A stretch of DNA of 64,000 bases from NCBI RefSeq assembly GCF_009735645.1, contig NZ_CP032550.1, forward strand, positions 186,001 to 250,000. Reading direction: 5' to 3'. This DNA is from Microbacterium oryzae. Lineage in GTDB: Bacteria; Actinomycetota; Actinomycetes; Actinomycetales; Microbacteriaceae. Both the position numbers and the translations under genes were made by a program. The notes under the pieces are model-generated. The model saw only the letters and a list, made by a program, of their open reading frames with translations, searched no databases and was not told the origin of the DNA. How positions within the stretch are numbered: position 1 is the first letter of the stretch; the number at the start of each line of letters is the position of its first letter. Positions 1 through 14,577 of the stretch are shown here, piece after piece.

Positions 1-1061
1 CCTCGGTTGGTGCCGAAGATCTCTCCCGACTCGGGGGAGTTCACGAGGAAGTCCACGAGTGTGGCCGCCGCCTCCGGGTGATCGGTCGACGCGGCGATCG
101 AGTGCAGCATGGAGGGCTTGAGATACAGATCCTGCGCGCCCTCGACGGTGACGGGGGGAGCGGCGAGCCCCAGCTCCGGGTAGCCCTCGCCGAGGTTGCC
201 GAGGTACCCGGCGCCGAAGTTGTCCCACGTCAGCTCGCTCGCGGTGAGAGCGGAGTCGAAGCCGGACAGGGGATAGACCTCTTCGAGCTGCTGGGCGCGG
301 ATGATGGCGTCCGAGTCCCGCAGCTCGGCGCCCTGCTCCCAGAACGCGCGCAGGTCGTCCTCGGTGAAGTTCGGCTCGCCCTCCTCCGTGAAGAGGTCCT
401 CGCCATTCGCGCGCTGCTGGATCTCGAAGTTCTGGATGCGTCCGGTCCAGTCCGTGCCGCCGAAGAACTCCTCGCCGGCCGCCGCGGCGCCCTCCGAGAT
501 GTCGCCCATCCAGGCGTTGTAGTCGTCCCAGCTGCCGCCGGCGAAGTCCTCGACGCCCGCCTTCTCGAGCAGCACGGGGTTGGTGTAGAGACCCCACGCG
601 TTCGTCGACGTGGGGATGCCGTACGTGCCGTCGGCGACCTCGCCGATGGCGAGGATGTCGTCGGAGAGCGGCTCGTCGTCGATGAGTCCGCCCAGGAAGG
701 GCTTGAGGTCGAGGAGCAGACCGTTCTCCGAGTACTGGCGCAGGTACGAGTAGTCGAACTGCATGACGTCGGGGAGTCCGCCGCCGGCCGCCTCGGTCTG
801 GCGCTTCTCCCAGAAGGCGGGGAAGTCGAGGAACGAGCTCTGGATGGTGATGTTGGGGTATTCCTCGTTGAAGGCGGCGAAGGCCTTGTCGTAGAGGTCG
901 GCGCGCACGTCGTTGCCCCAGAAGGCGAACGTGAGCGTCACCTCCTCGTTCGGGTCGAGCGTCTCCGCGGCCTCCTCCTGGGAGCCCGAGCAGCCGGCGA
1001 GCGTGAGCCCGCCGATCGTGACCAGGGCCGCCGCGGCGGCCATCCTCTTGGTGCGGAACAT
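1..1061 (-). CDS. Sugar ABC transporter substrate-binding lipoprotein (partial, 3' end off window)
   Basis: This is a family-1 type extracellular solute-binding protein that should capture an oligosaccharide outside the membrane for an ABC importer. About 353 codons are visible; the C-terminus lies beyond the left edge. The N-terminus MFRTKRMAAAAALVTIGGL runs into a lipobox LAGC, so it is a lipoprotein. The segment EKRQTEAAGGGLPD is shared exactly with the next gene upstream, and both have NEEYPNIT or NEEHPNIT before it, showing tandem paralogy. No permease gene is visible; on this strand permeases would lie further downstream, off the window. The ligand is inferred from the locus to be a pectin fragment. 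Confidence 0.9.
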   Translation of the reverse strand, partial: MFRTKRMAAAAALVTIGGLTLAGCSGSQEEAAETLDPNEEVTLTFAFWGNDVRADLYDKAFAAFNEEYPNITIQSSFLDFPAFWEKRQTEAAGGGLPDVMQFDYSYLRQYSENGLLLDLKPFLGGLIDDEPLSDDILAIGEVADGTYGIPTSTNAWGLYTNPVLLEKAGVEDFAGGSWDDYNAWMGDISEGAAAAGEEFFGGTDWTGRIQNFEIQQRANGEDLFTEEGEPNFTEDDLRAFWEQGAELRDSDAIIRAQQLEEVYPLSGFDSALTASELTWDNFGAGYLGNLGEGYPELGLAAPPVTVEGAQDLYLKPSMLHSIAASTDHPEAAATLVDFLVNSPESGEIFGTNR

Positions 1062-1111
1062 CGATGTCCTCTCAGAACGACGTCGTTCGAGCCCAGATGG
1101 GCGAGCGTCAG

Positions 1112-1159
1112 GGGAAAACGCTTGCCCACGACCCTAGCGTGCGAAAAAACGTTTCTCAA
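1112..1159 (-). promoter_or_regulatory. Promoter with two LacI-type operators for the first binding protein
   Basis: Read on the minus strand, a -35 box TTGAGA (1154-1159) and a -10 box TAGGGT (1131-1136) are separated by 17 bp. A 16-bp pseudo-palindrome, GGGGAAAACGCTTGCC on the plus strand (about 1112-1127), begins 3 bp downstream of the -10 box. A second element with core AAACGTTT (1147-1154) touches the -35 box. The layout matches the paralogous promoter near 2556-2605. The repressor is inferred to be the LacI protein encoded near 13 kb. Confidence 0.7.
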
Positions 1160-1216
1160 GTGCGGAAGTGAACGGGCCCCGCGCCGTTGTCATTCTGTGA
1201 CGCGGGGCCGCGTCGA

Positions 1217-2503
1217 TCAGCTGCCGAGGATGACGTCGGCCTCGGCGAAGAACTGCGAGACCGCGTCGTCGACGTTCACGGTGCCCAGGCCGAGCTCCTT
1301 GCCGAGGTCCCAGAACTTCTGCTCGAGCGATCCGTAACCCACCACGGGCGCGGGCGGGGCGTCGCCGATGCGGTCCTCGACCGACGCGATGAAGTCGGCG
1401 ACCTGCTTGTCCGGTCCTTCGAGCGTGGCCCCCTCGAGCTTCGTCTCCGACGCGGGGAAGCCCAGCGACGTGCCGAAGATCTCGCCCGCGTCGGGGCTGT
1501 TCACGACGAAGTCGAGGAAGATGGCGGCGGCTTCGGGGTGGTCGCTGGACTCGGAGACGGCCATCTGCAGGCCGGCCTGACGGTAGAGGTCCGCCGAGCC
1601 TTCCTCATCCGTGGGCGGCGCCACCATCGAGATGCTGGACGCGCCCGAGTCGCCGAGGTATGCGGCGATGAAGTTGCTCCAGCTGGCCTCGCTCGCGGTC
1701 ACGTTGCCGCCGAACCCGGAGACCGGGCTCAGCTCCTCGAGGCGCTGTTGAGGAACCACGACGCCGTCGCGGTCCGCGGCGCCGCGCTCCCAGAACGCGC
1801 GCAGGTCGTCCTCGTCGAAGCCGAGTTCGCCCTCCTCCGTGAAGAGGTTGCCGCCCTGCGCGCGCAGCACGTTCTCGAAGTTCTGGATGCGCTGCGTGTA
1901 GTCGGTGCCGCCGAAGACCGCGCCATCCGTCGCCTCGGTGACCTCTGCCATCCACGCGGAGTAGTCCTCGAAGCTCGTCCCGCCCGCATACGGCTCGATG
2001 CCGTACTCCGCGAGGATGTCGTCGTTGAGGAAGACCGACCAGGTGCTGAAGCCGAGCGGCAGCGAGTACTGCGTGCCGTCGAGCTCGCCGGTGCCCAGCA
2101 GGCCCTCGTCGATGGCGGACGTGTCGATGTAGTCCCCGTACTCGCTCAGGTCGGCGAGGAGGCCGTTCTGCGCGTACTGGCGCAGGTAGGTGTCCGAGAA
2201 CTGCCAGACGTCCGGGAGGCCGCCGCCCGCCGCCTCGGTCTGCCGCTTCTCCCAGTAGGAGGGGAAGTCGCTGAACGACCCGTTGACCGTGATGTTCGGG
2301 TGCTCCTCGTTGAACGCGTCGATGAGCTGCTGGTACCGCTGCGCGCGGTCGTCGTTGCCCCACCAGGTGAAGGTGAGCTCGACCTCCTCCTCCGGGTCGT
2401 ACTCGCCCGACCCGCCGGCCGCTCCCGAACATCCCGCCAGTGCGAGGGATGCGATCCCGATCCCTGCCGTGGCCGTGGCCATCCGCATGATCCGTCGCTT
2501 CAT
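1217..2503 (-). CDS. Sugar ABC transporter substrate-binding lipoprotein
   Basis: This second family-1 type solute-binding lipoprotein (428 aa) has a signal peptide starting MKRRIMRMATATAGIGIA and a lipobox LAGC, followed by the mature region with FTWWGNDDRAQRY and EKRQTEAAGGGLPD. The ATG chosen is preceded by AGGAG about 8 nt upstream; a longer reading frame exists but would put 25 residues before the signal peptide. It is complete and paralogous to the truncated protein downstream, and each gene has its own promoter. It probably delivers rhamnogalacturonan or related oligosaccharides to permeases encoded outside the window. Specificity is inferred from the neighbouring pectinolytic genes. 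Confidence 0.93.
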   Translation of the reverse strand: MKRRIMRMATATAGIGIASLALAGCSGAAGGSGEYDPEEEVELTFTWWGNDDRAQRYQQLIDAFNEEHPNITVNGSFSDFPSYWEKRQTEAAGGGLPDVWQFSDTYLRQYAQNGLLADLSEYGDYIDTSAIDEGLLGTGELDGTQYSLPLGFSTWSVFLNDDILAEYGIEPYAGGTSFEDYSAWMAEVTEATDGAVFGGTDYTQRIQNFENVLRAQGGNLFTEEGELGFDEDDLRAFWERGAADRDGVVVPQQRLEELSPVSGFGGNVTASEASWSNFIAAYLGDSGASSISMVAPPTDEEGSADLYRQAGLQMAVSESSDHPEAAAIFLDFVVNSPDAGEIFGTSLGFPASETKLEGATLEGPDKQVADFIASVEDRIGDAPPAPVVGYGSLEQKFWDLGKELGLGTVNVDDAVSQFFAEADVILGS

Positions 2504-2555
2504 CGCCGTGCTCCTGTCTGCTTCGTCGCTGTGTCGCGGAAGCGCATTCCATCGA

Positions 2556-2605
2556 TGGAAAACGCTTCCCGCGTTCACGCTAACGGGAGCAGAAACGTTT
2601 CACAA
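2556..2605 (-). promoter_or_regulatory. Promoter with two LacI-type operators for the second binding protein
   Basis: On the minus strand a -35 box TTGTGA (2600-2605) and -10 box TAGCGT (2577-2582) are 17 bp apart. The pseudo-palindrome TGGAAAACGCTTCCCG (2556-2571) lies 5 bp downstream of the -10 box. A perfect 10-bp palindrome GAAACGTTTC (2592-2601) overlaps the -35 box and the stop codon of the upstream PmoA-like gene. The centres of the two operators are 33 bp apart, about three helical turns. Confidence 0.72.
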
Positions 2606-3529
2606 GCCGACGCCGAGATCCTCGGCCAGCAGTGCCAGCTCCGCCGCGTCCCGCTCGCGATCGAGGAACGCGAACCGATGCGCGAGGTGGAGCTCGGCGC
2701 CCGGGGCGAGGACGACGGTCTCGGAGAACGTCGGGGACGGCGCGAGCGTGGGGAACGGCTCCGACCGGACGAACCACCGCACCTCGGGCTCGCCGCTCGA
2801 GCGCCCGGCGAAGGCGAGCACGGTGGCGCCGCCGTCGAGCTCGTCGAGGGGGCCGGAGAGCGCGAGCCAGGGCGTTGCCGCCCCCATCGCGGCGTCGGCG
2901 GCCGCGCCGCTGCGGGTCACCGGTCCGTCCGCCTCCGGCACGGTGACGGCCCCGCCGGTGAACGAGCGGGCCAGGCGGAGGAAGACGCCGGAGTAGCCCG
3001 CGTTCTCGCGTCCGTTGGTCGTCGGGCTCCCCAGCACGAGATCCTGGTCGGAGACGTTGCGCAGCACGGTCGTGAGATCCAGCACCCACCGGCTGTCGGC
3101 GACGTCGAGGGAGTGGAATCGCATCGTGCGTCGCTCGCGCAGCCATTCCGATCCCGCCTGCGTCACCCACGTGAGCTCCTCCTCAACGACCGCGGCATCG
3201 CCATCCGCGAGCGTCGTGAAGGCGTCGTGGCGGATGCGGCCGACATTGTCGAGCGGGATGTAGCCCTCGCCGTGCACGTAGGTGTTGCCGCCCCAGAAGT
3301 TCTCGCCGGAGACGTCGGTGAGCGTCATCTGCAGGCCCTTGTGCCAGCGATGGTCCCAGGGGCGGAAGCCCGTGAGCGGTGCGCCCGCCAGGGTGCGGAT
3401 CGGGTGCAGATACGGCTTCGGGCCCTCGAACGCCGGCGCGTCCTCGTCGTAGACGTAGCGGGCGAGCTCCACGCCGTCGGCGGAGACGGTGACCGCGGTG
3501 GCGGACCGGGCGATGGTGAAATCAGGCAT
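2600..3529 (-). CDS. PmoA-like (DUF6807) family protein
   Basis: The 309-residue protein belongs to the family annotated PmoA (methane oxygenase PmoA-like, DUF6807), recognisable from PYLHPIRTLAGAPLTGFRP followed by DHRWHKGLQ and the ENFWGG motif. There is no signal peptide or membrane segment, so it should be cytoplasmic; it is not a real methane mono-oxygenase subunit. Such proteins commonly sit in carbohydrate loci next to sugar dehydrogenases, and their biochemical role is not settled. The start overlaps the end of the dehydrogenase gene by 8 bp and has GAGGAGG in front of it, so the two are translationally coupled. A role in processing an imported pectin sugar is inference. Confidence 0.85.
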   Translation of the reverse strand: MPDFTIARSATAVTVSADGVELARYVYDEDAPAFEGPKPYLHPIRTLAGAPLTGFRPWDHRWHKGLQMTLTDVSGENFWGGNTYVHGEGYIPLDNVGRIRHDAFTTLADGDAAVVEEELTWVTQAGSEWLRERRTMRFHSLDVADSRWVLDLTTVLRNVSDQDLVLGSPTTNGRENAGYSGVFLRLARSFTGGAVTVPEADGPVTRSGAAADAAMGAATPWLALSGPLDELDGGATVLAFAGRSSGEPEVRWFVRSEPFPTLAPSPTFSETVVLAPGAELHLAHRFAFLDRERDAAELALLAEDLGVGL

Positions 3530-4661
3530 CCGCCGCCTCCTCTCGGGTCGAGCGGATGGTGCCCGCGTGGATGAGCGCGGTGGCGCGCGCGGCGTCGGGG
3601 CCGGCCATCGAGGCGTAGAAGTCGTCGCCGGGCACGAGCTCGCCGCGGGCGACGGAGCGGCCGGTCAGCGCCGACTTGTACATGCCGGCTGCGAGCTCCA
3701 TGACGCGGCGGCCGTCGTCGCCGGACGCCCGCGGACGCTCGCCCCGCTCCATGCAGTCGACGACGTGCGTGAACTGCGGCACGTGCGTCGAGCTCGACAC
3801 GTCCTCTGCGGGCGCCCAGCTCGCCGCCGTCTCCGCATCCACGCCGGGTGCGGGCGTCCACGTCCAGTGCGAGTTGTCGTATCCGTAGAGGTGCTCGACC
3901 TCGACCGTGGCCCGCTCGAAGTCCACGCGCACGCGGCTGGTCTCGCGCGGCGACAGCAGGCTGTTGGAGATCGAGCAGAGCGCGCCGGAGGCGAAGCGCA
4001 CGACGGCGAAGGAGACGTCCTCCGTCTCGGTGTCGCGGGCGAGCGTGGACATGATGGCGGTGACGTCGGTCCACTCGCCGAGGAGCGAGAGCAGCGTGTC
4101 CATCTGGTGGATGCCGTGGCCCATGGTGGGTCCGCCGCCCTCGGTCGCCCACTTCCCGCGCCACGGTACGGCGAAGTAGTCGGGCGTGCGGTACCAGAGG
4201 GTGTCGCACTGCGCCACGAGCGGACGGCCGAGCGAGCCATCCGCGATCAGTGCGCGCAGGCGCTCGGCCGCGCTGCCGAACCGGTGCTGGAAGACGTACG
4301 AGGCGAACGGCCCGTTCTCGCCCTCGTGTGCGGCGATCTCGTCGTAGTCGGCGAGAGACAGGGTCGGCGGCTTCTCCGACAGCACCCACGCGCCGGCCTC
4401 CAGAGCGGCGATCGCGGCGTCCTTGTGGGCGATCGGGGGAGTGGCGAGGGTCACGAGGTCCGGCTTCTCGGCCGCGAGGAGTTCGGCGAGATCGGTGTGC
4501 CAGGCGGGGATGCCGAACTCGCTCGCCGCCGCCTCGGCGGCGCTCGCGTTCACGTCCGCCACGGCGACCACCTCGACGCGGTCGCCCAGGGCGGCGAGGC
4601 TCGGGAGGTGCTGGCCGCGGGAGATGGCTCCCGTTCCGATGACGGCGACGCGGATGGGCAT
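3522..4661 (-). CDS. Gfo/Idh/MocA family NAD(P)-dependent oxidoreductase
   Basis: The 379-residue protein starts with a Rossmann nucleotide-binding motif (VAVIGTGAISRGQHLPSL) and carries the family motif EKPP near residue 118, where the lysine is the usual catalytic residue. The family oxidises or isomerises sugars, inositols and their derivatives with NAD(P). AGGAG lies at a good distance before the ATG. It is the first gene of a two-gene unit with the PmoA-like gene and is preceded by an operator of the local regulon, which ties it to rhamnogalacturonan or galacturonate catabolism. The substrate cannot be read from the sequence. Confidence 0.92.
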   Translation of the reverse strand: MPIRVAVIGTGAISRGQHLPSLAALGDRVEVVAVADVNASAAEAAASEFGIPAWHTDLAELLAAEKPDLVTLATPPIAHKDAAIAALEAGAWVLSEKPPTLSLADYDEIAAHEGENGPFASYVFQHRFGSAAERLRALIADGSLGRPLVAQCDTLWYRTPDYFAVPWRGKWATEGGGPTMGHGIHQMDTLLSLLGEWTDVTAIMSTLARDTETEDVSFAVVRFASGALCSISNSLLSPRETSRVRVDFERATVEVEHLYGYDNSHWTWTPAPGVDAETAASWAPAEDVSSSTHVPQFTHVVDCMERGERPRASGDDGRRVMELAAGMYKSALTGRSVARGELVPGDDFYASMAGPDAARATALIHAGTIRSTREEAADA

Positions 4662-4691
4662 GGTGCTCCTTTGCAGGGGGTGGCGCGGGTG

Positions 4692-4737
4692 CGGAAAGCG
4701 CTTGCCGCTACGCTACCGCAGATCGCGGCGAGGTCAG
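4692..4737 (-). promoter_or_regulatory. Promoter and LacI-type operator for the dehydrogenase unit
   Basis: The operator CGGAAAGCGCTTGCCG (4692-4707) is a 16-bp pseudo-palindrome centred on CG. On the minus strand it starts 2 bp after a -10 box TAGCGT (4710-4715); a -35-like CTGACC (4732-4737) lies 16 bp further up, overlapping the stop codon of the exporter gene. The placement over the start of transcription is typical of repression. Confidence 0.7.
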
Positions 4738-6509
4738 AGGGCCTGCGTGAGATGAAGTTCGGCGTAGCGGCCGCCCTGCGCGAGGAGCGCATCGTGGGAC
4801 CCCTGCTCCACGACGCGGCCGCGCTCGAGCACGACGATGCGGTCGGCGCTGCGGACCGTGGAGAGACGGTGCGCGACGACGAGGGTGGTGCGCCCCGTCA
4901 TCAGCCGATCGAGAGCCTGCTTCACGAGCTGCTCCGATTCGGGATCGAGAGCGCTCGTCGCCTCGTCGAGGAGCAGGATGCGCGGGTCGCGGACCAGGGC
5001 ACGCGCGATGGCGATGCGCTGTCGCTGCCCACCCGAGAGCCGCGCCCCGCGCTCGCCGACGACGGTGTGCCATCCGTCGGGCAGGTCGTCGACGAACTGC
5101 AGGGCGTTCGCGTCGCGGAGCGCGGCGCGCACGCGCGCGTCGTCGGCGTCGTCCAAGCCGTAGGCGACGTTGTCGCGGATCGTGCCCTCGAAGAGCACCG
5201 ACTCCTGCGGCACGACGGACACATGGCGGCGGACGCTGCGCAGGTCCAGCTCGCGCGTGTCCTGCCCGTCGAGGAGGATGCGGCCGGAGGTGGGGCGCAC
5301 GAAGCCGAGGACGAGGTTCAGCATGGTCGACTTGCCCGAGCCGGACGAGCCGACGAACGCGACGGTCTCGCCCGCGGGGATCGTGAGGGACACGTCGCGG
5401 ATGGCGTCGCCGGCGGCCTCCGGGTAGCGGTGCGTGACCCGGTCGAGCTCGATCCGTCCGGTCACGCTCGAGACGTGTCGGCGCCCTTCGTTGATCTCGA
5501 CGTCGGGCTCCTCGAGCACCTCCGCGATCGACCGCGCCGACTCGATGCCGCGCGCGGCGACGGGTAGGAGCATGAGCAGCTGGGTGAGGCCCTGCGTGAG
5601 GAGGGTGAAGTACGACGACAGCATGACGACCTCGCCCGGCGTGATCGGCACGATCCCGGTCAGGGAGAAGATCGCCGCGAGCACGAGGCAGGCGGCGCCC
5701 AGCAGCTGCATGGCGACCCAGGACATCGACGCGATGCGCCCGTTGAGGAGGTCGAGGACGAAGCCCGCGCGGCGGACCTCGTCGGCGCCGGCGGCCACGC
5801 GGGTCACGGCCGTCTCCTCCAGGCCGTGGGCGCGCGTGATCGGGATGAGCGAAGCCATCTCGCCCACCCGCGCGGAGAACCCCTCGACCTCGCGTCGAAA
5901 CCGCTCGTTGCTCGCTCGCATGCGGCGCGCCGTCGTCCAGCGGATGAGCACGGCCACCGGGACGGCGAGCAGATAGACGGGGAGGAACTCGGGCACGACG
6001 ACCGCGGTCATCGTGACGGCGCCGACGAGCACCATCGTGGCCGACAGCAGCGGATGCATGACCTGCTGCAGCATCACCTCGATGTTCTCGACGTCGCGCA
6101 CCACCTTCGTCTGCACGACCGAGGCGCTCGCACGGGTGTGGAAGCCGATCGACAGCTGCTGCAGATGAGCGGCGAGGCTGTTGCGGAGCTCGGCGCCGGT
6201 GTCGCGGACGACGCGCGCGAACATCCGCGTGTAGAGGATGTGGTTCGGATAGTTCTGCAGCAGGAGGACGGCGGCCAGCGCGAACCAGCCGATGACCGCC
6301 ATGACGTCGCCGTCGTCCGCGACGATGTCGACGATCGCGGCCGTGATCACCGGGAGTGCCCACATCGGGATCTCCTTGAGCGTGAAGGCGGCGACCGCGA
6401 CGGCCATCCGCCCGGGGCGCCGCCCGAGGAGCCTGATGACCGAGCGCGTCGGATGCGCCCCGTCGATGCGGACGGGCCGCAAGCGGCGGGGAAGCGTTTT
6501 CTCGGTCAC
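4734..6509 (-). CDS. ABC exporter, fused permease and ATP-binding protein
   Basis: This 591-residue half-transporter has an N-terminal six-helix exporter domain and a C-terminal ATPase domain. The Walker A motif GSSGSGKST contains K393, the signature is LSGGQRQR, Walker B is ILLLDEATSALD and the H-loop is AHRLST. It should work as a homodimer moving substrate outward or, in some subfamilies, act on lipids or drugs. The GTG start is supported by a TAGCAT box exactly 6 nt upstream, indicating a leaderless mRNA. A LacI-type operator covers codons 3-8, placing this exporter in the pectin regulon, which is unusual. No partner half-transporter is adjacent. The substrate is unknown. Confidence 0.88.
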   Translation of the reverse strand: MTEKTLPRRLRPVRIDGAHPTRSVIRLLGRRPGRMAVAVAAFTLKEIPMWALPVITAAIVDIVADDGDVMAVIGWFALAAVLLLQNYPNHILYTRMFARVVRDTGAELRNSLAAHLQQLSIGFHTRASASVVQTKVVRDVENIEVMLQQVMHPLLSATMVLVGAVTMTAVVVPEFLPVYLLAVPVAVLIRWTTARRMRASNERFRREVEGFSARVGEMASLIPITRAHGLEETAVTRVAAGADEVRRAGFVLDLLNGRIASMSWVAMQLLGAACLVLAAIFSLTGIVPITPGEVVMLSSYFTLLTQGLTQLLMLLPVAARGIESARSIAEVLEEPDVEINEGRRHVSSVTGRIELDRVTHRYPEAAGDAIRDVSLTIPAGETVAFVGSSGSGKSTMLNLVLGFVRPTSGRILLDGQDTRELDLRSVRRHVSVVPQESVLFEGTIRDNVAYGLDDADDARVRAALRDANALQFVDDLPDGWHTVVGERGARLSGGQRQRIAIARALVRDPRILLLDEATSALDPESEQLVKQALDRLMTGRTTLVVAHRLSTVRSADRIVVLERGRVVEQGSHDALLAQGGRYAELHLTQAL

Positions 6510-6525
6510 GATGTCATGCTAGGGA
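6488..6525. promoter_or_regulatory. Shared LacI-type operator between exporter and esterase, with flanking -10 boxes
   Basis: GGGGAAGCGTTTTCTC (6488-6503) is the degenerate member of the operator family. For the minus-strand exporter it lies just inside the coding start, below a -10 box TAGCAT (6516-6521) that is 6 nt from the GTG. For the plus-strand esterase it would cover the -35 position of a promoter whose -10 is TAGGGA (6520-6525). One bound repressor could block both directions. Confidence 0.55.
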
Positions 6526-6551
6526 CTTCTCACCCCCGGAAGGAACTCGAC

Positions 6552-7220
6552 ATGACGTATCACCTCGTCGGCGATTCGACCGTCGCCGCCTGCCCGGCCG
6601 TCGAGCGCCCCATGTCGGGGTGGGGAGCGCATCTCGCGCCCTTCGTCGGTGCGCCCGTCGACAACCGGGCGGTGGGCGGCTCGACGACGGAGGACTGCCT
6701 GCGCGAGGTCTGGCCGGGACTGCTCCCCGAGATCGCTGCGGACGACACCGTGCTCATCCAGTTCGGACACAACGACCAGAAGCTGCCCCACCTCGACGCG
6801 CGCGGCGGCTATGCCGAGCGGCTGCGCACGATGGTCGCGGATGTGCGCGATCGAGGCGCGGCGCCCGTGCTCTGCACGTCGGTGGAGCGGCGCTGGTTCG
6901 AGGGCGACCGGGTGACCCCCACCCACGGCGACTACCCGAACGCCGTGCGAGATCTCGCGCACGAGCTCGATGTGCCGCTCATCGACCTCAACGCGTTCAC
7001 GACCTGGCTCTACGAGGACCTCGGTCCGGAGGGATCGGTCGCGCTCCTGTGCCACTTCGCCCCGGGCGAGCACCCGCACTGGCCCGACGGACTCGCCGAC
7101 GACACGCATTTCCACGAGCGCGGCGCCCGGCGGATCGCGGCCTTCGTCGCGCGCTCGCTGCGGGCGATCGAGCGACGCGATGGCGATCAGCCCGCGCGCG
7201 GCACACAGCTCGTCAGCTGA
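6552..7220 (+). CDS. Rhamnogalacturonan acetylesterase-like SGNH/GDSL hydrolase (CE12 type)
   Basis: The 222-residue protein is a one-domain SGNH hydrolase: the nucleophile block is HLVGDST with Ser9, the QFGHND block follows, and the DDTHFHERGA block supplies Asp183 and His186. This pattern is that of rhamnogalacturonan acetylesterases (CE12), which remove acetyl groups from galacturonic acid in the RG-I backbone. GGAAGGA precedes the ATG at a good distance. There is no signal peptide, so unlike the CE12 domain in the neighbouring giant enzyme it should act inside the cell on imported oligosaccharides. It is convergent with the lyase gene and divergent from the exporter. Confidence 0.88.
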   Translation: MTYHLVGDSTVAACPAVERPMSGWGAHLAPFVGAPVDNRAVGGSTTEDCLREVWPGLLPEIAADDTVLIQFGHNDQKLPHLDARGGYAERLRTMVADVRDRGAAPVLCTSVERRWFEGDRVTPTHGDYPNAVRDLAHELDVPLIDLNAFTTWLYEDLGPEGSVALLCHFAPGEHPHWPDGLADDTHFHERGARRIAAFVARSLRAIERRDGDQPARGTQLVS

Positions 7221-7228
7221 ACCGAGGG

Positions 7229-7265
7229 GAGCGGCCCCGGGCGGGACGACAGTCCGGGGCCGCTC
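7229..7265. terminator. Bidirectional terminator hairpin
   Basis: Inverted repeat of 12 bp (GAGCGGCCCCGG and its complement) with a 13-nt loop between the convergent CE12 esterase and the lyase gene. Confidence 0.7.
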
Positions 7266-7271
7266 GCTTCC

Positions 7272-10200
7272 TCACTTGACGCGGACGGTGATCTCCTTCG
7301 TCTCGGTCTCGCCGGCGGCATTGGTCAGCACCGCGCGGTACACGTACTCACCGGATGCACGTTCGGAGATCTCGGTCGACACGGACTGCGCCCGGGGTGT
7401 TGCCGCCGTCAGCTCCTGCTCATCGACGAGCTCGCCGTTCTCGTAGAGGCGGTACGCCGTGGCGTTCGTGCCCCACCACAGGTTCGCGGTGACGGTGTAG
7501 CCGCCGTCGCGATCCCAGTTGTCGTGCGAGAGCACGGCCTTCCCCGGGTTCGCGTCGGTCACCTTGACCGTCACCGGCTTGCACGGCGTGGCGCCGTGCT
7601 GGTTGACGAGCTCGCACGTGTACTCGTAGGTGCCGTTCGCCCGTCCGCTCACCTCGAACGAGAACTCCTGCGCCTGCGGCGTGACGTCGGCCAGGTGCGC
7701 TTGCGTGAGCAGCCCTCCGTTCTCGTACAGACGGATGGTGTGGGCGTTCTGCCCGTGCCACAGGTTCATCGTCACGGTGTGGTCGCCGTCCTTCAGCCCG
7801 TGCGTCCATCCGCTCGTCGTGGACAGGACCCCCGTGCCGGGAGCCGCGGTCGCGGGGCCGGGGACGACCTCCGCCGCCGGCGCCTCCGTCGTGTACGCCA
7901 GGCGCGGCGCCGCGGGGGTCTCCATGCCCTCGCCGAGGTAGTAGCTCGTGTGCGGGGGCTGGTTGTAGCCGCTCAGCTGCCAGGCGATCGACAGTCGATA
8001 CTGCGGGTCCGACAGGAGCGTGCGCAGACGGTGCTCGGTGACGTCCGTGGTGGTGAACATCCGCAGGGCCGACGAGTCGACCGTGCGGTACACGAGCTCC
8101 TCGCGCCAATCGCCGAGGAGATCCGCCTGCAGAGCGGGATTGCCCTTCGTGTCGTTGTTCGTGAGCACGCCCTCCGGCTCGAAGATCGGCACCTCGCGCT
8201 CGTTCTCGTAGTCCCACTTCGACACGACCGGCGTGCCGGTGCGCGTCGCCGTGTCGAACGAGTGGTCGACGATCTCGCTCAGGAGGTCGCCGTCCCACTG
8301 CGCGACGAAGTTCGCCGCCGGGATGGCCGTGGCGATCTCCTCGCCGGAGACGTTGCGCAGCGACCCCTCCCGGGAGTCCCACGCGGCCGTCCCGCCGATG
8401 TTCCATCCCTCGGCCCCGTCGTACCGCGGGTCGATGTCGGCCATCGCGGCGCGCCCGGTGTCCTTCTCGGCGGGGACGCTCCAGAGCACCTCTCCCGTGG
8501 CGGCGTCACGGAAGGTGGCGCCGGTGTCGCCGGACGCGCCCATGTCCTCGTGCGCGGAGTACACCTCGAGGCCCGGACGAGACGGATCGAAGTCGCTCAC
8601 GTGCTGAGCGTCGCCGTGCCCGAGGCCCGTGGAGTACAGGCCGGTGCCGTCATCATCGATCGCAGCCGAGCCGAAGACGATCTCGTCCTTGCCGTCGGCG
8701 TCGACGTCGGCCATGGTCAGGCCGTGGTTGCCCTGACCGGCGTAATCGCCGTTCCCCTTCGCCGAGGAGTCGAAGACCCACCGCCGGGTGAGGCTCGCCC
8801 CGTCGAAGTCGAAGGCCGCGATCACCGCGCGCGTGTAGTAGCCGCGCGAGAACACCGCACTCGGGTGCTCGCCATCGAGGTACGCGACCCCCGCGAGGAA
8901 GCGGTCGACGCGGTTGCCGTACGTGTCGCCCCAGGAGCCGACGTCGCCGCGACCCGGCACGTAGTCGATGGTGTCGATCGCGCGCCCGGTCGTGCCCTCG
9001 AAGACCGTGAGGTACTCCGGTCCCGTGAGGATGTAGCCGGATGAGTTGCGCCAGTCCTTGCTGCCGTCCCCGATCACCGTGCCCTGGCCGTCCATCGTGC
9101 CGTCGGCGGTCTTGACCACCACCTCGGCTCGGCCGTCCGAGTCGAAGTCGTAGACCTGCGGCTGGGAGTAGTGCGCGCCCGCGCGGATGTTGATGCCGAG
9201 ATCGATGCGCCAGAGCTGCGTCCCGTCGAGCTCGTAGGCGTCGAGGTAGACGTTGCCGGTGTAACCCGCCTTGGAGTTGTCCTGCGAGTTCGTCGGGTCC
9301 CACTTGACGACGTACTCGAGCTGGCCGTCGCCGTCGAGGTCCGCGACCGACACGTCGTTCGCGCGGTACGAGTACGGCTGGCCGTCCTTCGTGTAGGCAT
9401 CCGCCGGCTTGTTCAACGGGATGTCGAGGGACTGCCCGTCCCACGGGGTGAACTCGTCCGTCGCCCAGAGTTCGGCGTCGCCGTCGACGAGCGCGACGCG
9501 GTACGTCGAGTCCGCCGTGCCGTCGGGGTCGACGAGGTTCGTCGAATCGACGACGGGTTCGGCCGTGATCCGCTTCCCGTCTCGATAGACGTGGAACGCT
9601 GCGTCCTGCGCGTCGTCGCCGAGCAGCCGCCAGCCGATGTAGACCCCGTCGCCCTGCGCGACCGCCACGGGCGCGCGATCCAGACGTTCGGCGGCACGGT
9701 CGAGGGCGGTGACGGCAGGGGTGGAGACCGGATCGGATGGGTCGGACGGACCGCCCGCATTCACCGCCTGTACGCGGTACGTGTAGGACACGGTCGTGAG
9801 GACGTCCTCATCGACGTACACGGGCTCATCCGCCCGCCCGATGACGGCGGAGTCGCCGTTCTTGTCCTCGCGGCTGACGAGATAGAACAGCGCGTCGTCG
9901 CTCTCGTCCCAGGAGAGCGCGACCGAATTCTTCAGCACGTCGCCGTGAGCGAGGCCCGTCGGCGGCGCCGGCGCATCGACCTCGGGGTCGATCAGCTCGA
10001 CGTCGACGCCGACCGACGGCACCGATTCGGCGCCGCGGGCCGTCACCGTCGTCACCGCGTAGGTCACGCTCGATCCCGGCTGGGCGGTCTCGTCGACGAG
10101 GGACGTGCCCTCGGTCTCCCCGACGAGCGCGGTGCCCTCGGGCGCGGTGCGGTAGACGCGGTAGCTCGCCGCCTCCGGCGCCGCGTCCCAGGACAGCGAG

Positions 10201-12260
10201 GTCGAGGCGCCGGCACCCTCGAACGCGATGTCGTCGAGCCGGATGGTCGCGGGCGCGACGAGGAGCGGAGTGAGGGTGAGCCCGTTCAGGTGCCCCGTCT
10301 GCCCGGTGATGACGGTGTTCAGCTGGCCGTCGCTCACGGTGATGCCGTCGAGCACCTGCTCGCGGGACCCTCGGCTGACGGAGATCCCGCCGTAGTCGCG
10401 CCCCTCGACCTCCACCGAGGTGCGCACGGTGCCGAGGGAGTCCCCGACGGTCGCCGTCGCCGAGTAGGTGCCGTTGGGCACGTCCGCCGCGAACTCGTAG
10501 CGGCCGCCGAAGTACGCCACGAAGTCGCGCGCGATCTCGTCGCCGGCCGAGGCGCCGCGATCGCGGTCGATCATGCCGGTGGCGTCGAGCAGCCCGAAGC
10601 CCCGGTCAGCGGAGTAGGTCGTCGAGCGGTTGACCTCCGTGTAGCCGTCGGCGACGGGGGCGCCCGCGGGCTGGAAGTCGTAGCGGTACGCGGCCGCCCG
10701 CGTCGTGGCCGAGGCGATGTCGCTCACCGCTCCCTCGCCGCGGCCGTTGACGGCGCTCACGCGGAAGTCGTAGACGTCGCCCTCGTCGAGGCCGCCGACG
10801 GTCGCCTGCGGGATCGTGGAGGTGGCCGCGAGCGCGAACGCTTCCTCACCCGCGGGGCTCCGGTACACGCGGTAGATGTCGGCGCCCTCGGTGGCGTCCC
10901 AGGTGAGGGAGACCGACGAACTGGATGTCTCGGAGACCACGAGTCCGCCGACGGCGGCCGGCACCGCATCGGGAGCCGTGACCTCGACGGCCCCCGAGAT
11001 CGGCAGGCCGAGTCCGGCGACGTCGAGCGCTACCAGGCGCGCCATCTGGATCGCGCCGTACTCCTGGAGATGCGTGTTGTCCTGCACGCCCGCCGGCCGG
11101 TTCGGGTAGACGCCGGCGTCGGCGTAGAGGAAGACCGACTTCGCCGCCTCCGCTCCGATCTCATCGAGGTAGGCGCGGCTGGACGCCGACAGGTCGACGA
11201 GTGCCACGTCGAGCTCCGCGGCGACGGCCTTCATCGCCTGCACGTACTCGGGGAAGCTCTCGTTGAACGCGCCCGTCTCGGCGTCGACATCGAGACGGTT
11301 CATCGGAGTGACGAGCACCGGAGTCCCGCCGCGCTGCCGCGTCCCGTTCACGAGGGTGCGGAGGTAGCCCTGGTACTGCTCGGGGGTCGTGTACCGCTCG
11401 GGAACGGACGCGGTGGCGTCGTTGTGCCCGAACTGCGCGAACACGTAGTCCTCCGGCCGCACCGCGCGCAGCACGCTGTCGAGACGCCCCTCCGTGACGA
11501 AGGTGCGCGACGATCGGCCGCCGATGGACTGATTGTCCACGGCGACGTCGTCGGTGAGGAAGCGATCGAGCATCTGACCCCATCCCGCCTGGGGCTCCCA
11601 GTAGGGGTCGTACGTCTGAACGGTCGAGTCGCCGGTGAGGTACGCCGTGGGCTGATCGGCCGCCTCCCGGGCGGGCTGAGGGGTGATGACGATGGCGTTG
11701 ATGTTCGGCGCCGCGCCGGTGAAGCCGAATGACAGCTGCCCGTCGACGAGCGCGATGTCGTAGTTCATCTCGAGGTACTGGCCCGCGGGCTTCGAGGTGG
11801 TCTGGACCTTCTGGATCTCCTCGCTGCTGATCGCGATCTCGGTCGCCGCGCCGGTGTCCCCGGCGATGATGGAGACCGTGTAGTCGACGCTTCCGAGGTC
11901 GACGACGAAGGTCGAGTCGACGGGGGTGACGAAGTCGCCGCGGAGGGCGTCGCCGCCGCGGTCGGTCTCGGTCGCCGTCGCGCCCTCTGCGAAGCCGAAG
12001 CCGCGCTCGGCCGAGTAGGGCGTATCGGCCGCGACGGGGAGATACCCCTCCGCCACAGCGCCTGAGCCGAAGTCGAAGCGGACGGGCGAGCCCGCCGCCG
12101 CCATCTCCGCCGGCGTCTGCGTCGCGGCGTGCGCGCCGCCTGCCGAGAGACATCCGAATGCGACCGCCGCCGCCGTCGCGAGCGCGAGCGGCCGCACCGG
12201 CCGTCCGCTCCGACCATCCGCGTCGGCGGGTCCGCCGGCGTATGGGATTCTGCCCTTCAC
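7272..12260 (-). CDS. Secreted multidomain rhamnogalacturonan lyase (PL11) with CE12 acetylesterase domain
   Basis: This roughly 1662-residue exoenzyme has, in order: a signal peptide (LALATAAAVAFGC to GGAHAA); a beta-sandwich starting FDFGSGAVAEGYLP; a CE12 SGNH domain with nucleophile Ser212 in LTGDST, QFGHND, and D394-N-T-H397; an FN3 domain (about 434-520); a second beta-sandwich with FDFQPAGAPVADGYTE; two more FN3 domains (about 670-850); a PL11 rhamnogalacturonan lyase (about 857-1457) with the hallmark DLDGDGQLEYVVKWDPTNSQ; and two C-terminal repeats containing NLW.G.NA.....LYENG. It should deacetylate and cleave RG-I outside the cell. I chose the GTG preceded by GGAGCAGAT; another GTG is 13 codons upstream. 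No sortase motif is visible. Confidence 0.92.
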   Translation of the reverse strand: MKGRIPYAGGPADADGRSGRPVRPLALATAAAVAFGCLSAGGAHAATQTPAEMAAAGSPVRFDFGSGAVAEGYLPVAADTPYSAERGFGFAEGATATETDRGGDALRGDFVTPVDSTFVVDLGSVDYTVSIIAGDTGAATEIAISSEEIQKVQTTSKPAGQYLEMNYDIALVDGQLSFGFTGAAPNINAIVITPQPAREAADQPTAYLTGDSTVQTYDPYWEPQAGWGQMLDRFLTDDVAVDNQSIGGRSSRTFVTEGRLDSVLRAVRPEDYVFAQFGHNDATASVPERYTTPEQYQGYLRTLVNGTRQRGGTPVLVTPMNRLDVDAETGAFNESFPEYVQAMKAVAAELDVALVDLSASSRAYLDEIGAEAAKSVFLYADAGVYPNRPAGVQDNTHLQEYGAIQMARLVALDVAGLGLPISGAVEVTAPDAVPAAVGGLVVSETSSSSVSLTWDATEGADIYRVYRSPAGEEAFALAATSTIPQATVGGLDEGDVYDFRVSAVNGRGEGAVSDIASATTRAAAYRYDFQPAGAPVADGYTEVNRSTTYSADRGFGLLDATGMIDRDRGASAGDEIARDFVAYFGGRYEFAADVPNGTYSATATVGDSLGTVRTSVEVEGRDYGGISVSRGSREQVLDGITVSDGQLNTVITGQTGHLNGLTLTPLLVAPATIRLDDIAFEGAGASTSLSWDAAPEAASYRVYRTAPEGTALVGETEGTSLVDETAQPGSSVTYAVTTVTARGAESVPSVGVDVELIDPEVDAPAPPTGLAHGDVLKNSVALSWDESDDALFYLVSREDKNGDSAVIGRADEPVYVDEDVLTTVSYTYRVQAVNAGGPSDPSDPVSTPAVTALDRAAERLDRAPVAVAQGDGVYIGWRLLGDDAQDAAFHVYRDGKRITAEPVVDSTNLVDPDGTADSTYRVALVDGDAELWATDEFTPWDGQSLDIPLNKPADAYTKDGQPYSYRANDVSVADLDGDGQLEYVVKWDPTNSQDNSKAGYTGNVYLDAYELDGTQLWRIDLGINIRAGAHYSQPQVYDFDSDGRAEVVVKTADGTMDGQGTVIGDGSKDWRNSSGYILTGPEYLTVFEGTTGRAIDTIDYVPGRGDVGSWGDTYGNRVDRFLAGVAYLDGEHPSAVFSRGYYTRAVIAAFDFDGASLTRRWVFDSSAKGNGDYAGQGNHGLTMADVDADGKDEIVFGSAAIDDDGTGLYSTGLGHGDAQHVSDFDPSRPGLEVYSAHEDMGASGDTGATFRDAATGEVLWSVPAEKDTGRAAMADIDPRYDGAEGWNIGGTAAWDSREGSLRNVSGEEIATAIPAANFVAQWDGDLLSEIVDHSFDTATRTGTPVVSKWDYENEREVPIFEPEGVLTNNDTKGNPALQADLLGDWREELVYRTVDSSALRMFTTTDVTEHRLRTLLSDPQYRLSIAWQLSGYNQPPHTSYYLGEGMETPAAPRLAYTTEAPAAEVVPGPATAAPGTGVLSTTSGWTHGLKDGDHTVTMNLWHGQNAHTIRLYENGGLLTQAHLADVTPQAQEFSFEVSGRANGTYEYTCELVNQHGATPCKPVTVKVTDANPGKAVLSHDNWDRDGGYTVTANLWWGTNATAYRLYENGELVDEQELTAATPRAQSVSTEISERASGEYVYRAVLTNAAGETETKEITVRVK

Positions 12261-12309
12261 ATCTGCTCCGATCGTGGGGGAATGTGTGCGACGTCGCACC
12301 GCAGCGCGT

Positions 12310-12378
12310 AGGAAAGCGCTTCCCGCGAAACTAGCGGCGGGAGCGGGGCTCGGTCAAGGGCCGCGCGAAACGTGTCGC
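12310..12378 (-). promoter_or_regulatory. Promoter and LacI-type operators for the lyase gene
   Basis: The best operator copy in the locus, AGGAAAGCGCTTCCCG (12310-12325), begins 2 bp after a minus-strand -10 box TAGTTT (12328-12333); the -35 box TTGACC (12352-12357) is 18 bp away. A further 14-bp near-palindrome GCGAAACGTGTCGC (12365-12378) lies just upstream and resembles the AAACGTTT elements at the binding-protein promoters. Confidence 0.7.
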
Positions 12379-12522
12379 CTTCATGAGCTCCGCTGCCGTC
12401 GGCGCGGCCGACAGCGGGACGTCGGACGCGGTGTGGGACCATCCGCTCGACCGTGGCCGCGGCGACGGCGGATGGCCAGGGCCGCGTGGCCGGACGTCGC
12501 GTCGAGCGGACGGTCCGCCCGC
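12379..12522. other. Intergenic region between lyase promoter and lacI stop
   Basis: No gene is supported here. It contains short inverted repeats, including GTCGGC/GCCGAC around 12398-12412 and GCGGAC/GTCCGC (12506-12518) just after the regulator stop codon, which may help terminate regulator transcription. Confidence 0.35.
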
Positions 12523-13527
12523 TCAGCCCACGGTCGAGGCGCGCACGACGAGCTCCGCGGCGAAGACCTCCGTCGCGGGCGGCTGCTCGCCCTCGCCGCG
12601 CAGCAGCGACACGAGCATCTCGCCCGCGCGGCGGCCCATGGCGCGTGCGGGCTGACGCACGGAGGTGAGCGGCACGGCGGCGATGGAGGCGAACGGGATG
12701 TCGTCGTACCCCACCACGGCGACATCGTCCGGCACGCGGAGCCCGGCGGTGAGGAGCCCATGCACGATGCCGCACGCCAGCATGTCGTTGGCGGCGAACA
12801 CGGCATCGGGGCGCTCGTGCGCGGGCATGCCGGCGATGCGCGCGCCGATCTCGCTGCCGAGGCGCGGGGTGGTGCGCAGGCCGATCGTGACGTCGAGGGG
12901 AACGCCGGCCTCCTCCGCGAAGGACGCCGCGCCCCGCAGCCGGTCTCGCGTCTGGCGCACCTCCTCGCGGGCGCCGACGAACGCGAGGCGGCGCCGGCCG
13001 ATCTCGACGAGGTGGCGGACGGCCATCCGCCCGCCCTGCACATTGTCGAGCGAGACCGACGGCGTGAGGCCCTGCTCATCGATGCCGTCGACGAGCGTGA
13101 CGGGGATCTGCTGCGCTCGCAGCCGCTTGAGCGCGGGCGCCACGTCTCCGAAGGGGGAGACGATGACGCCCTCGACGTGGGCGAGCTCGAACAGCTCGAG
13201 GTAGCTGCTCTCCCGCTGCGCGCTGTCGTCGCTGTTGCCGAGCATGACCTGGTAGCCGGCGGCGGAGGTGGCCTCCTCGGCGCCCTCGAGCATCTCGGCG
13301 AAGAACGGGTTGCCGATGCTGATCACCGTCATGCCGATGAGTCCACTGCGCCCGGCGCGCAGCTGCTGGGCGGCGCGGAGCGGGACGTACCCCAGCTGGT
13401 CGGCCGCCGCGCGCACGCGGGTGCGGAGCTGCTCGCTGACCGCGTCGGGCCGATTGAGGGCGTTCGACACCGAGCTGATGGAGACGCCCGCGAGATCGGC
13501 GACGTCACGGATGCCCGCTCGCCTCAT
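12523..13527 (-). CDS. LacI-family transcriptional regulator of the pectin locus
   Basis: The 334-residue repressor has an N-terminal LacI helix-turn-helix (IRDVADLAGVSISSVSNALN, residues about 6-25), a hinge region, and a periplasmic-binding-protein-like effector domain (GLIGMTVISIGNPFFAEMLE). The recognition helix reads SISSVSN, with Asn where most LacI proteins have Arg. GAGGAGG precedes the ATG. It sits among the pectinolytic genes, several of which carry the same CG-centred operator, so it is the likely local repressor released by a pectin breakdown product. A variant operator lies in front of its own start, suggesting autoregulation. Confidence 0.93.
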   Translation of the reverse strand: MRRAGIRDVADLAGVSISSVSNALNRPDAVSEQLRTRVRAAADQLGYVPLRAAQQLRAGRSGLIGMTVISIGNPFFAEMLEGAEEATSAAGYQVMLGNSDDSAQRESSYLELFELAHVEGVIVSPFGDVAPALKRLRAQQIPVTLVDGIDEQGLTPSVSLDNVQGGRMAVRHLVEIGRRRLAFVGAREEVRQTRDRLRGAASFAEEAGVPLDVTIGLRTTPRLGSEIGARIAGMPAHERPDAVFAANDMLACGIVHGLLTAGLRVPDDVAVVGYDDIPFASIAAVPLTSVRQPARAMGRRAGEMLVSLLRGEGEQPPATEVFAAELVVRASTVG

Positions 13528-13562
13528 CCCCGCCTCCTCGCAGCGCCGGCCGCCCTGACCGG

Positions 13563-13575
13563 GTAAACGCTTTAC
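13563..13575 (-). promoter_or_regulatory. Putative autoregulatory LacI-type operator
   Basis: GTAAACGCTTTAC is a 13-bp inverted repeat located 36 bp upstream of the lacI start. It shares the ACGCTT core of the other operators but has odd spacing and lacks the flanking GG/CC, so binding may be weaker. Confidence 0.5.
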
Positions 13576-13611
13576 GGGATCAGTCTCCCACAGCGCGCGG
13601 AGGCGAGAGCG

Positions 13612-14577
13612 TCACGCGAGGCGGTCGCGCAGCCACCGCAGCTGGGCGGCGCGCTGGTGCCCGCCGCCGCCCTCGTGGTTGTTGAACGGGTACACCTCGA
13701 GCGCGCGATCCTCCCCGCCCCACGCGTTGTACGCCGCGAAGACGGTCGACGGCGGGCACACGGTGTCCATCAGCGCGACCGAGAAGAGCGCGGGCGCCGT
13801 GGCGCGCGAAGCGAGGATGGCGCCGTCGAAGTACGACAGGGTGCGGTACACCTCGTCGACGCGCTCGCGGTGAGCGGCGAGGTAGGTGCGGACCTCGGCA
13901 TAGGGCATGGAGTCGACGAGGGTCGTCGCGCGGGGGAAGTCGCAGAGGAACGGCACGTCGGGCATCGCCCCTGCCACATCGCCCGCGAGTGCGGCGGCCG
14001 CGATCGACAGCCCGCCGCCCTGGCTGCCGCCCGTGACGAACACCGGCAGTCCGGGCGCGAGCGCGCGGGCGGCGTCCACCGCGAGGGCGGCGTCGGTGTA
14101 GGCACGCCGGTAGTAGTAGGTCTCGGGGCTCTCGATGCCGCGGGTGAGCACGCCGGGCGCGTGGGAGCCGCTGCCGTACGGATCGGGCGTCGCCCCGCCG
14201 CCGCTGCCGTGATTCCACCCCTGCCCGCGGGTGTCGACGACGAGCCGCGCGACGCCCGCCATCGGGAATGCGCCGGTGTCGTGCGCGTGTCCACGGCCGC
14301 CGGAGTACCCGATGGACTCCACCACGACCGCGCGCGGCTCCTGACCGACGGGCACCTGCCACCACGCCGCGATCGCGTCGCCGCCGAAGCCCGCGAAGGC
14401 GACGTCGAAGACGTCCACGAGTGAGAGCCCGGCGTCCACACGCTCGACGCGCGGCGCCCATCCGGCCGCGCGGGACTCGGAGAGGGTGCGCGCCCAGAAG
14501 TCGTCGAAGTCGTCGGGAACGGGAAGGTCCGGTCGATAAGAGCGGAGCTGGTCGAGCGGAAGGTCGAAGTGCGCCAT
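13612..14577 (-). CDS. Acetylxylan esterase / cephalosporin-C deacetylase family hydrolase (CE7-like)
   Basis: The 321-residue alpha/beta hydrolase begins FDLPLDQLRSYRPDLPVPDD and has the RGQGWNH and nucleophile VTGGSQGG blocks with Ser185; a late histidine occurs in NNHEGGGGHQ. These are hallmarks of CE7 esterases, which deacetylate short sugar oligomers. No signal peptide is present, so it should act on imported oligosaccharides. GAGGAGG precedes the ATG. It is followed 84 bp later by the LacI regulator on the same strand. No operator of the regulon is obvious before it, so co-regulation is inferred from position only. Confidence 0.9.
   Translation of the reverse strand: MAHFDLPLDQLRSYRPDLPVPDDFDDFWARTLSESRAAGWAPRVERVDAGLSLVDVFDVAFAGFGGDAIAAWWQVPVGQEPRAVVVESIGYSGGRGHAHDTGAFPMAGVARLVVDTRGQGWNHGSGGGATPDPYGSGSHAPGVLTRGIESPETYYYRRAYTDAALAVDAARALAPGLPVFVTGGSQGGGLSIAAAALAGDVAGAMPDVPFLCDFPRATTLVDSMPYAEVRTYLAAHRERVDEVYRTLSYFDGAILASRATAPALFSVALMDTVCPPSTVFAAYNAWGGEDRALEVYPFNNHEGGGGHQRAAQLRWLRDRLA

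Follow-up and report, generated by a model that had tools for sequence, protein, structure and literature searches.

Which regulator reads the operator that recurs through a rhamnogalacturonan-I utilisation regulon of Microbacterium oryzae, and is it the only operator there? The regulon, in a host type that we read as a Microbacterium-like actinobacterium, lies at the start of a 64,000-nucleotide stretch, hereafter the window (C1:186001-250000; the genome is one contig of 3,040,780 bases, and coordinates without the C1 prefix are those of the window). The original prediction, made from the sequence alone, had placed it under a LacI-family regulator near 13 kb, here LacI-A (12523..13527, minus strand; helix-turn-helix (HTH) VSISSVSNALN). 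Our analysis of related genomes points instead to a second LacI-family regulator, LacI2 (C1:176632-177660, about 8.3 kb left of the window), as the reader of the recurring operator A, and to a second palindrome class, operator B, at the transporter promoters.

Operator A and the genes it precedes

Operator A is a CG-centred even palindrome with the pattern GGNAARCGYTTNCC and the core AARCGYTT. The exact form GGAAARCGCTTNCC occurs at 1113-1126, 2557-2570, 4693-4706 and 12311-12324, and two further sites depart from it by one mismatch (6489-6502, minus strand) and by two (13562-13575). All six pseudo-palindromes that had been reported are present, each within one base of the position given (five one base to the right and the variant one base to the left), and their CG-centred, LacI-type character holds in the sites, in the promoters and in the alignment described below.

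Genome-wide (3.04 Mb), GGNAARCGYTTNCC occurs exactly five times, four of them in the interval of the original prediction and the fifth at C1:181018, 5 kb left of the window. Allowing up to one mismatch gives 15 places, of which eight keep the AARCGYTT core intact, namely the six window sites, C1:181018 and C1:142356, and all eight precede the rhamnogalacturonan gene set. The seven places with an altered core look like chance occurrences, because a reversed control pattern matches at 16 places, and with three mismatches allowed the window shows no excess (22 matches, 21.3 in shuffles). Base composition would give 0.014 occurrences of even the looser GGNAARCGYTTNCC per 64 kb; the exact pattern of the original prediction is there four times. 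Site density is far from equal along the genome: nine of the 52 AARCGYTT cores fall within C1:181018-199575, with 0.32 expected (binomial P 3e-11), seven of them in operator A and two in the AAACGTTT palindromes of operator B. Chance occurrence of the A sites was rejected on the GGNAARCGYTTNCC genome counts, the core clustering and the composition expectation.

The A set of the M. oryzae genome comprises two PL11 genes, two binding proteins, two oxidoreductase operons, an exporter/CE12 pair and LacI-A. The ABC solute-binding protein SBP1 (3..1061; profile search and left flank) has operator A (GGCAAGCGTTTTCC) at 1113..1126, and a second solute-binding protein, SBP2 (1217..2503; profile search, scanned from 2518), has it at 2557..2570. 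The Gfo/Idh/MocA oxidoreductase GFO1 (3522..4661) and a DUF6807 protein (2600..3529; PmoA in the original prediction), both from profile searches, follow the site at 4693..4706, and a 1675-aa protein with a PL11 rhamnogalacturonan lyase part (7272..12299) follows that at 12311..12324, all these genes and sites being on the minus strand. Four sites had been placed 2-5 bp after a -10 box; this describes those at 1113, 4693 and 12311 (4, 3 and 3 bp), and the gap at 2557 is 6 bp. An uncertain, weak A-like site just downstream of the SBP2 operator A (2537..2550, minus strand) has three mismatches on the plus strand and two on the minus strand.

The site at 6489..6502 lies in a divergon, between an ABC exporter gene (4734..6509, minus strand, GTG start; profile search) and a gene for a GDSL protein similar to rhamnogalacturonan acetylesterase (6552..7220, plus strand; CE12-type). 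For the exporter, A falls just inside the GTG start codon, 13 bp after a -10-like hexamer. At 6489-6520 a -10-like TAGCAT stands a few bases before this GTG, and the transcript may be leaderless. The two-mismatch variant (13562..13575, minus strand) is upstream of LacI-A. A PL11 lyase and a CE12-type esterase are both under the shared operator A in M. oryzae, and the predicted arrangement of one recurring operator before both binding-protein genes, the dehydrogenase/DUF6807 pair, the exporter/CE12 divergon and PL11 is borne out in this genome.

The regulon is not self-contained, as had been proposed, since operator A is also found outside that interval at two places. At C1:181018 it is followed leftward by GFO2 (a second Gfo/Idh/MocA protein), DUF993, a TIM-barrel protein and LacI2, which from gene order and strand would form one transcript. 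At C1:142356 it lies in the promoter of a second PL11 rhamnogalacturonan lyase of 828 aa (C1:142406-144892, equivalent to L017:8406-10892, plus strand), about 44 kb left of the window.

Regulator genes that accompany the two operators

The comparison set was 149 genomes of the genus. LacI2, called at E 1e-70 or better and at least 57% identity, was found in 89 of the 149; the other calls were LacI-A (at least 55% identity) in 21, SBP1 (at least 62%) in 49 and the L-rhamnose isomerase gene rhaI in 114. Genomes with SBP1 carry LacI2 and rhaI in 49 of 49 cases and LacI-A in 20 of 49.

Operator A is present in 84 of the 89 genomes with LacI2 and in 8 of the 60 without it (Fisher 1e-25, kinship ignored). 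On a quick one-protein IDH tree, covering 110 of the 139 genomes with an IDH match, LacI2 changes 19 times and A 21 times; among eight independent supported pairs that differ in LacI2, A agrees in six, opposes in none and shows no difference in two (sign test, median p 0.03, range 0.016-0.25).

Furthermore, the A core precedes GFO2, the first gene of the LacI2 operon, in all 36 GFO2 loci (23/23 and 13/13). Of the 23 stretches, 18 contain LacI2; in the other five it lies within 4 kb beyond the end. The 13 are from genomes without LacI-A and without SBP1 of at least 62% identity, and were found among 20 further LacI2 loci chosen from 39 genomes lacking SBP1 and LacI-A, a choice that deliberately includes five without an A site. 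GFO2 is present in 13 of these 20 loci, every time with A (in one, G008, permease homologues adjoin and the SBP1 homologue is 51% identical), and five of the seven loci without a GFO2 neighbour are precisely the five LacI2-positive genomes without any A site. A before GFO2 is the pattern that an autoregulated local repressor should leave, and we consider it probable that A is the operator of LacI2. The LacI2 recognition helix (SLATASRVLNG) is similar to that of CcpA, and operator A to a cre site.

The SBP1 promoters could be aligned for 48 of the 49 SBP1 genomes (G010 had no match over the cut in its stretch), and A is present in 47 of the 48. In relatives with LacI-A, the A core precedes SBP1 (18/18), the exporter start (16/18), CE12 (9/9) and GFO2 (4/4); in loci without LacI-A it precedes SBP1 (27/28), GFO2 (17/17), the exporter (4/6) and, in a tally where some GFO1 matches may be paralogues, GFO1 (1/20). 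SBP2 was left out of the tally, SBP2 queries also matching SBP1. A further A-like site occurs 54-56 bp upstream of the SBP1 operator A in L238, L251, L252, L261, L240, L255 and L258.

Several observations weigh against a LacI2 regulon of this extent. In the relatives with LacI-A, the A core is seldom found before GFO1 (2/17), DUF6807 (3/8) and PL11 (1/4). Two of the seven LacI2 genomes without a GFO2 neighbour still have A sites, and the GFO2-less loci mean that the LacI2 count may include paralogues. Moreover, in M. oryzae and in genome G037 the LacI-A promoter carries an A-type rather than a B-type site, such that LacI-A might read A here.

Operator A is not the only operator, as had been supposed. 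A second palindrome class, operator B, with the core AAACGTTT, overlaps the -35 boxes of both binding-protein promoters: as GAAACGTTTTT at 1145..1155 on the SBP1 box TTGAGA, and as GAAACGTTTC at 2592..2601 on the SBP2 box TTGTGA (both minus strand). The genome has just two copies of AAACGTTT, at 1147 and 2593, and a reversed control pattern likewise has two; what stands out is where the AAACGTTT copies lie rather than how many there are. Each overlaps a TTGNGA -35 box, itself separated by 17 bp from the -10 box, and the distance from A to B is 31 bp at SBP1 and 33 bp at SBP2. Across relatives with the AAACGTTT core it is 30-31 bp at SBP1. In the alignment the slot reads AAACGTTT in 35 of the 48 promoters and a related CG-centred sequence in 13, three of which have the symmetric AATCGATT. 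A degenerate B-like palindrome, GCGAAACGTGTCGC, lies upstream of PL11 (12365..12378, minus strand), and G037 has AAACGTTT at a similar distance.

The form of B follows LacI-A. Of the 21 genomes with LacI-A, 20 have GAAACGTTTTT; of the 128 without it, 5 do (Fisher 3e-19, kinship ignored). For the SBP1 promoters, read on the gene strand, the counts are 19/20 and 0/28, respectively. AAACGTTT is also found upstream of LacI-A itself in 4 of 20 relatives. A comparison of LacI-A with 20 of the 26 LacI loci of its own genome (six without a clean frame were left out) gave as nearest two proteins with RhaR-like helices, at 48% and 43% identity, the latter encoded beside rhaI; LacI2 is at 30%. The rhaI gene, whose product scores above the TIGR02635 cut-off, lies farther left in the genome than LacI2, with the divergent LacI gene RhaR beside it and a nearby protein matching aldolase and short-chain dehydrogenase. 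On these identities, LacI-A is a paralogue of this rhaI-linked LacI. The rhaI-linked site is exactly TGAAACGATTCA in 25 of 30 rhaI loci, with variants in M. oryzae and G037 and none in three; the B slot is TTGCGAAACGTTTCAA in many genomes without LacI-A, closer in look to the RhaR site. Because LacI-A is nearest to RhaR-like LacIs, GAAACGTTTTT tracks LacI-A and TTGCGAAACGTTTCAA resembles TGAAACGATTCA, we take B to be the place of a RhaR-type LacI, one that would be filled by LacI-A where it is present. LacI-A appears to be the most likely binder of B, a view that we hold with about even confidence, and this is a weaker step than the assignment of A to LacI2. In 17 stretches around AAACGTTT sites in five relatives, scanned for LacI genes and sites only, the binder of B was not identified.

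The LacI-A assignment of B has its own difficulties. In three of the five LacI-A-negative genomes with GAAACGTTTTT (G015, G055 and G119), the SBP1 promoter has the motif, reversed in orientation. A tree of the SBP1 protein, built from the same 48 genomes, has LacI-A and GAAACGTTTTT each changing 10 times, yet there are only four independent supported pairs, of which three agree, none opposes and one shows no difference (p 0.25), so that kinship may account for the link between B and LacI-A.

Alternative assignments

RhaR, too, could be the binder of B. Under this hypothesis RhaR binds B in all genomes, and the transporter promoter would sense rhamnose by way of RhaR and a different sugar by way of LacI2, which is compatible with LacI2 binding A. 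The presence of rhaI in every SBP1 genome and the resemblance between RhaR sites (TGAAACGATTCA) and the B slot, greatest in the LacI-A-negative genomes (TTGCGAAACGTTTCAA), favour it; against it, the B arm shifts with the presence of LacI-A, and AAACGTTT stands before LacI-A in 4 of 20 relatives. We regard RhaR as a tentative, rather unlikely candidate for the role given here to LacI-A.

A second possibility is that LacI-A and LacI2 have overlapping specificity and both bind A, with B an auxiliary site for cooperative binding about three helical turns away. The 30-33 bp spacing fits the 32 bp peak of LacI intersite distances reported in the available text of PMC4052901, and three LacI-A-negative genomes (L240, L255 and L258) have an upstream site with GG..CC flanks and a AAACGTTT core. 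However, A and the B slot at SBP1 differ in core and flanks, and each follows a different regulator gene, and we consider shared specificity improbable.

The original prediction, that LacI-A binds all A sites and controls the cluster, fares slightly worse and is very doubtful. In its favour, the LacI-A gene lies within the cluster and has, in M. oryzae and G037, an A-type site before it. Nevertheless, among SBP1 genomes A is about as frequent with as without LacI-A (3.70 and 3.55 sites, respectively) and tracks LacI2, being present in 34 of 39 genomes that have LacI2 but neither LacI-A nor SBP1; and the A core precedes LacI-A in only 1 of 20 relatives. We rejected LacI-A as the main binder of A on these counts. 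Finally, that B is a mere -35 element with a chance palindrome is highly improbable and was rejected on the 48-promoter alignment, because B does contain the TTGNGA hexamer but the conserved AAACGTTT extends beyond it and the change to AATCGATT is symmetric.

Proposed regulation and known systems

From the observed sites, their places, their conservation and their co-occurrence with regulator genes, we infer binding, repression and inducers as follows. LacI2 would control the whole A regulon, including its own operon, whose promoter also carries A. At the four window promoters with A starting 3-6 bp past the -10 box, bound LacI2 should prevent transcription from starting, and an inducing sugar would release it from A. 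At the transporter promoters a RhaR-like LacI, probably LacI-A, would act as an additional gate through B over the -35 box. If the two repressors sense different breakdown products, transporter expression and uptake would become a two-signal decision.

The reassignment points to a different repressor gene for purification or deletion. The two separable operator classes offer a testable two-signal logic at a transporter promoter, and at B, across a genus, the slot sequence varies with whether a paralogous regulator is present. That DUF6807 and DUF993 share an operator with rhamnogalacturonan lyases is a lead to their function.

The gene content raises a further point. A hydrolase search limited to the PF07470 family (GH88/GH105) found no match in the whole M. 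oryzae genome despite its two PL11 lyases, while a control search was positive in B. subtilis; the PL11 products therefore seem to be without the usual hydrolase. Two of the genes with an A operator encode Gfo/Idh/MocA oxidoreductases, and others encode DUF6807, DUF993 and a xylose-isomerase-like TIM barrel. Another route might run through the co-regulated oxidoreductases together with DUF6807 and DUF993, as a lead only. Known 3-keto-glycoside pathways oxidise first and split afterwards. That the regulon forms such a route for rhamnogalacturonan-I disaccharides, with lyase products oxidised and then split by products of A-operator genes, is a speculative and unlikely proposal.

Of the two binding proteins of the A set, one comes with permeases and GH42: leftward beyond the window, the genes after SBP1 encode two permeases, a DUF624-like protein that scores 22.3 bits, under the cut-off of 24.2, and GH42. 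The 7272-12299 protein has galactose-binding and GDSL (CE12-like) domains, fn3 and then the PL11 lyase; this fusion of an N-terminal CE12-type module to PL11 possibly combines two enzyme activities. An AXE1 (CE7-type) esterase gene closes the interval (13612..14577, minus strand), and its promoter has neither operator class and no AARCGYTT core. LacI-A and LacI2 both have the LacI HTH (PF00356) and a periplasmic-binding-like domain. Among named genomes the nearest relative of LacI-A is in Microbacterium sp. 2FI (63%; records very near the window's own were possibly excluded), and of 80 named loci around LacI-A relatives L033 alone was analysed. A LacI2 copy in another genome (G033:C1:501554-502549) has one TGA inside the match, as does a LacI paralogue of the M. 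oryzae genome (G000:C1:1766975-1767973).

The Bacillus subtilis yes/rhg cluster shares with this system PL11, a CE12-type esterase, an ABC transporter, GH42 and a DUF624-like gene, and the PL11 part of the 1675-aa protein has solved relatives in YesW and YesX. Unlike that cluster, the system described here has LacI regulators, Gfo/Idh/MocA, DUF6807 and DUF993 proteins and no GH88/GH105 match. A literature search for Microbacterium, LacI, pectin and regulon found no paper; in the text available to such searches DUF993 was not found and DUF6807 was mentioned by one paper, in passing.

According to the available text of PMC3870299, regulons for rhamnogalacturonan or rhamnogalacturonides are controlled by RhgR in Bacillales and by RhiR, of the LacI family, in Rhizobiales and Erwinia. 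These regulons concern the same substrate class as ours, and RhiR belongs to the same regulator family (a likeness at family level), in a different lineage. The same text gives RhaR of Actinomycetales as a LacI-family protein, and the likeness of LacI-A to RhaR is that of its identity to the LacI beside rhaI. LacI-A differs from RhaR in lying near the exporter gene in 18 of the 20 relatives' loci and in its inferred site, which is not the rhaI site. Lastly, the local LacI-family sugar regulons described in the available text of Ravcheev et al. 2014 (PMC4052901) have CG-centred even palindromes, frequent autoregulation, tandem sites and the 32 bp distance peak. Operators A and B are likewise CG-centred even palindromes in promoters, but unlike in those regulons, as far as that text describes them, two motif classes that track two regulator genes are here stacked on one promoter.

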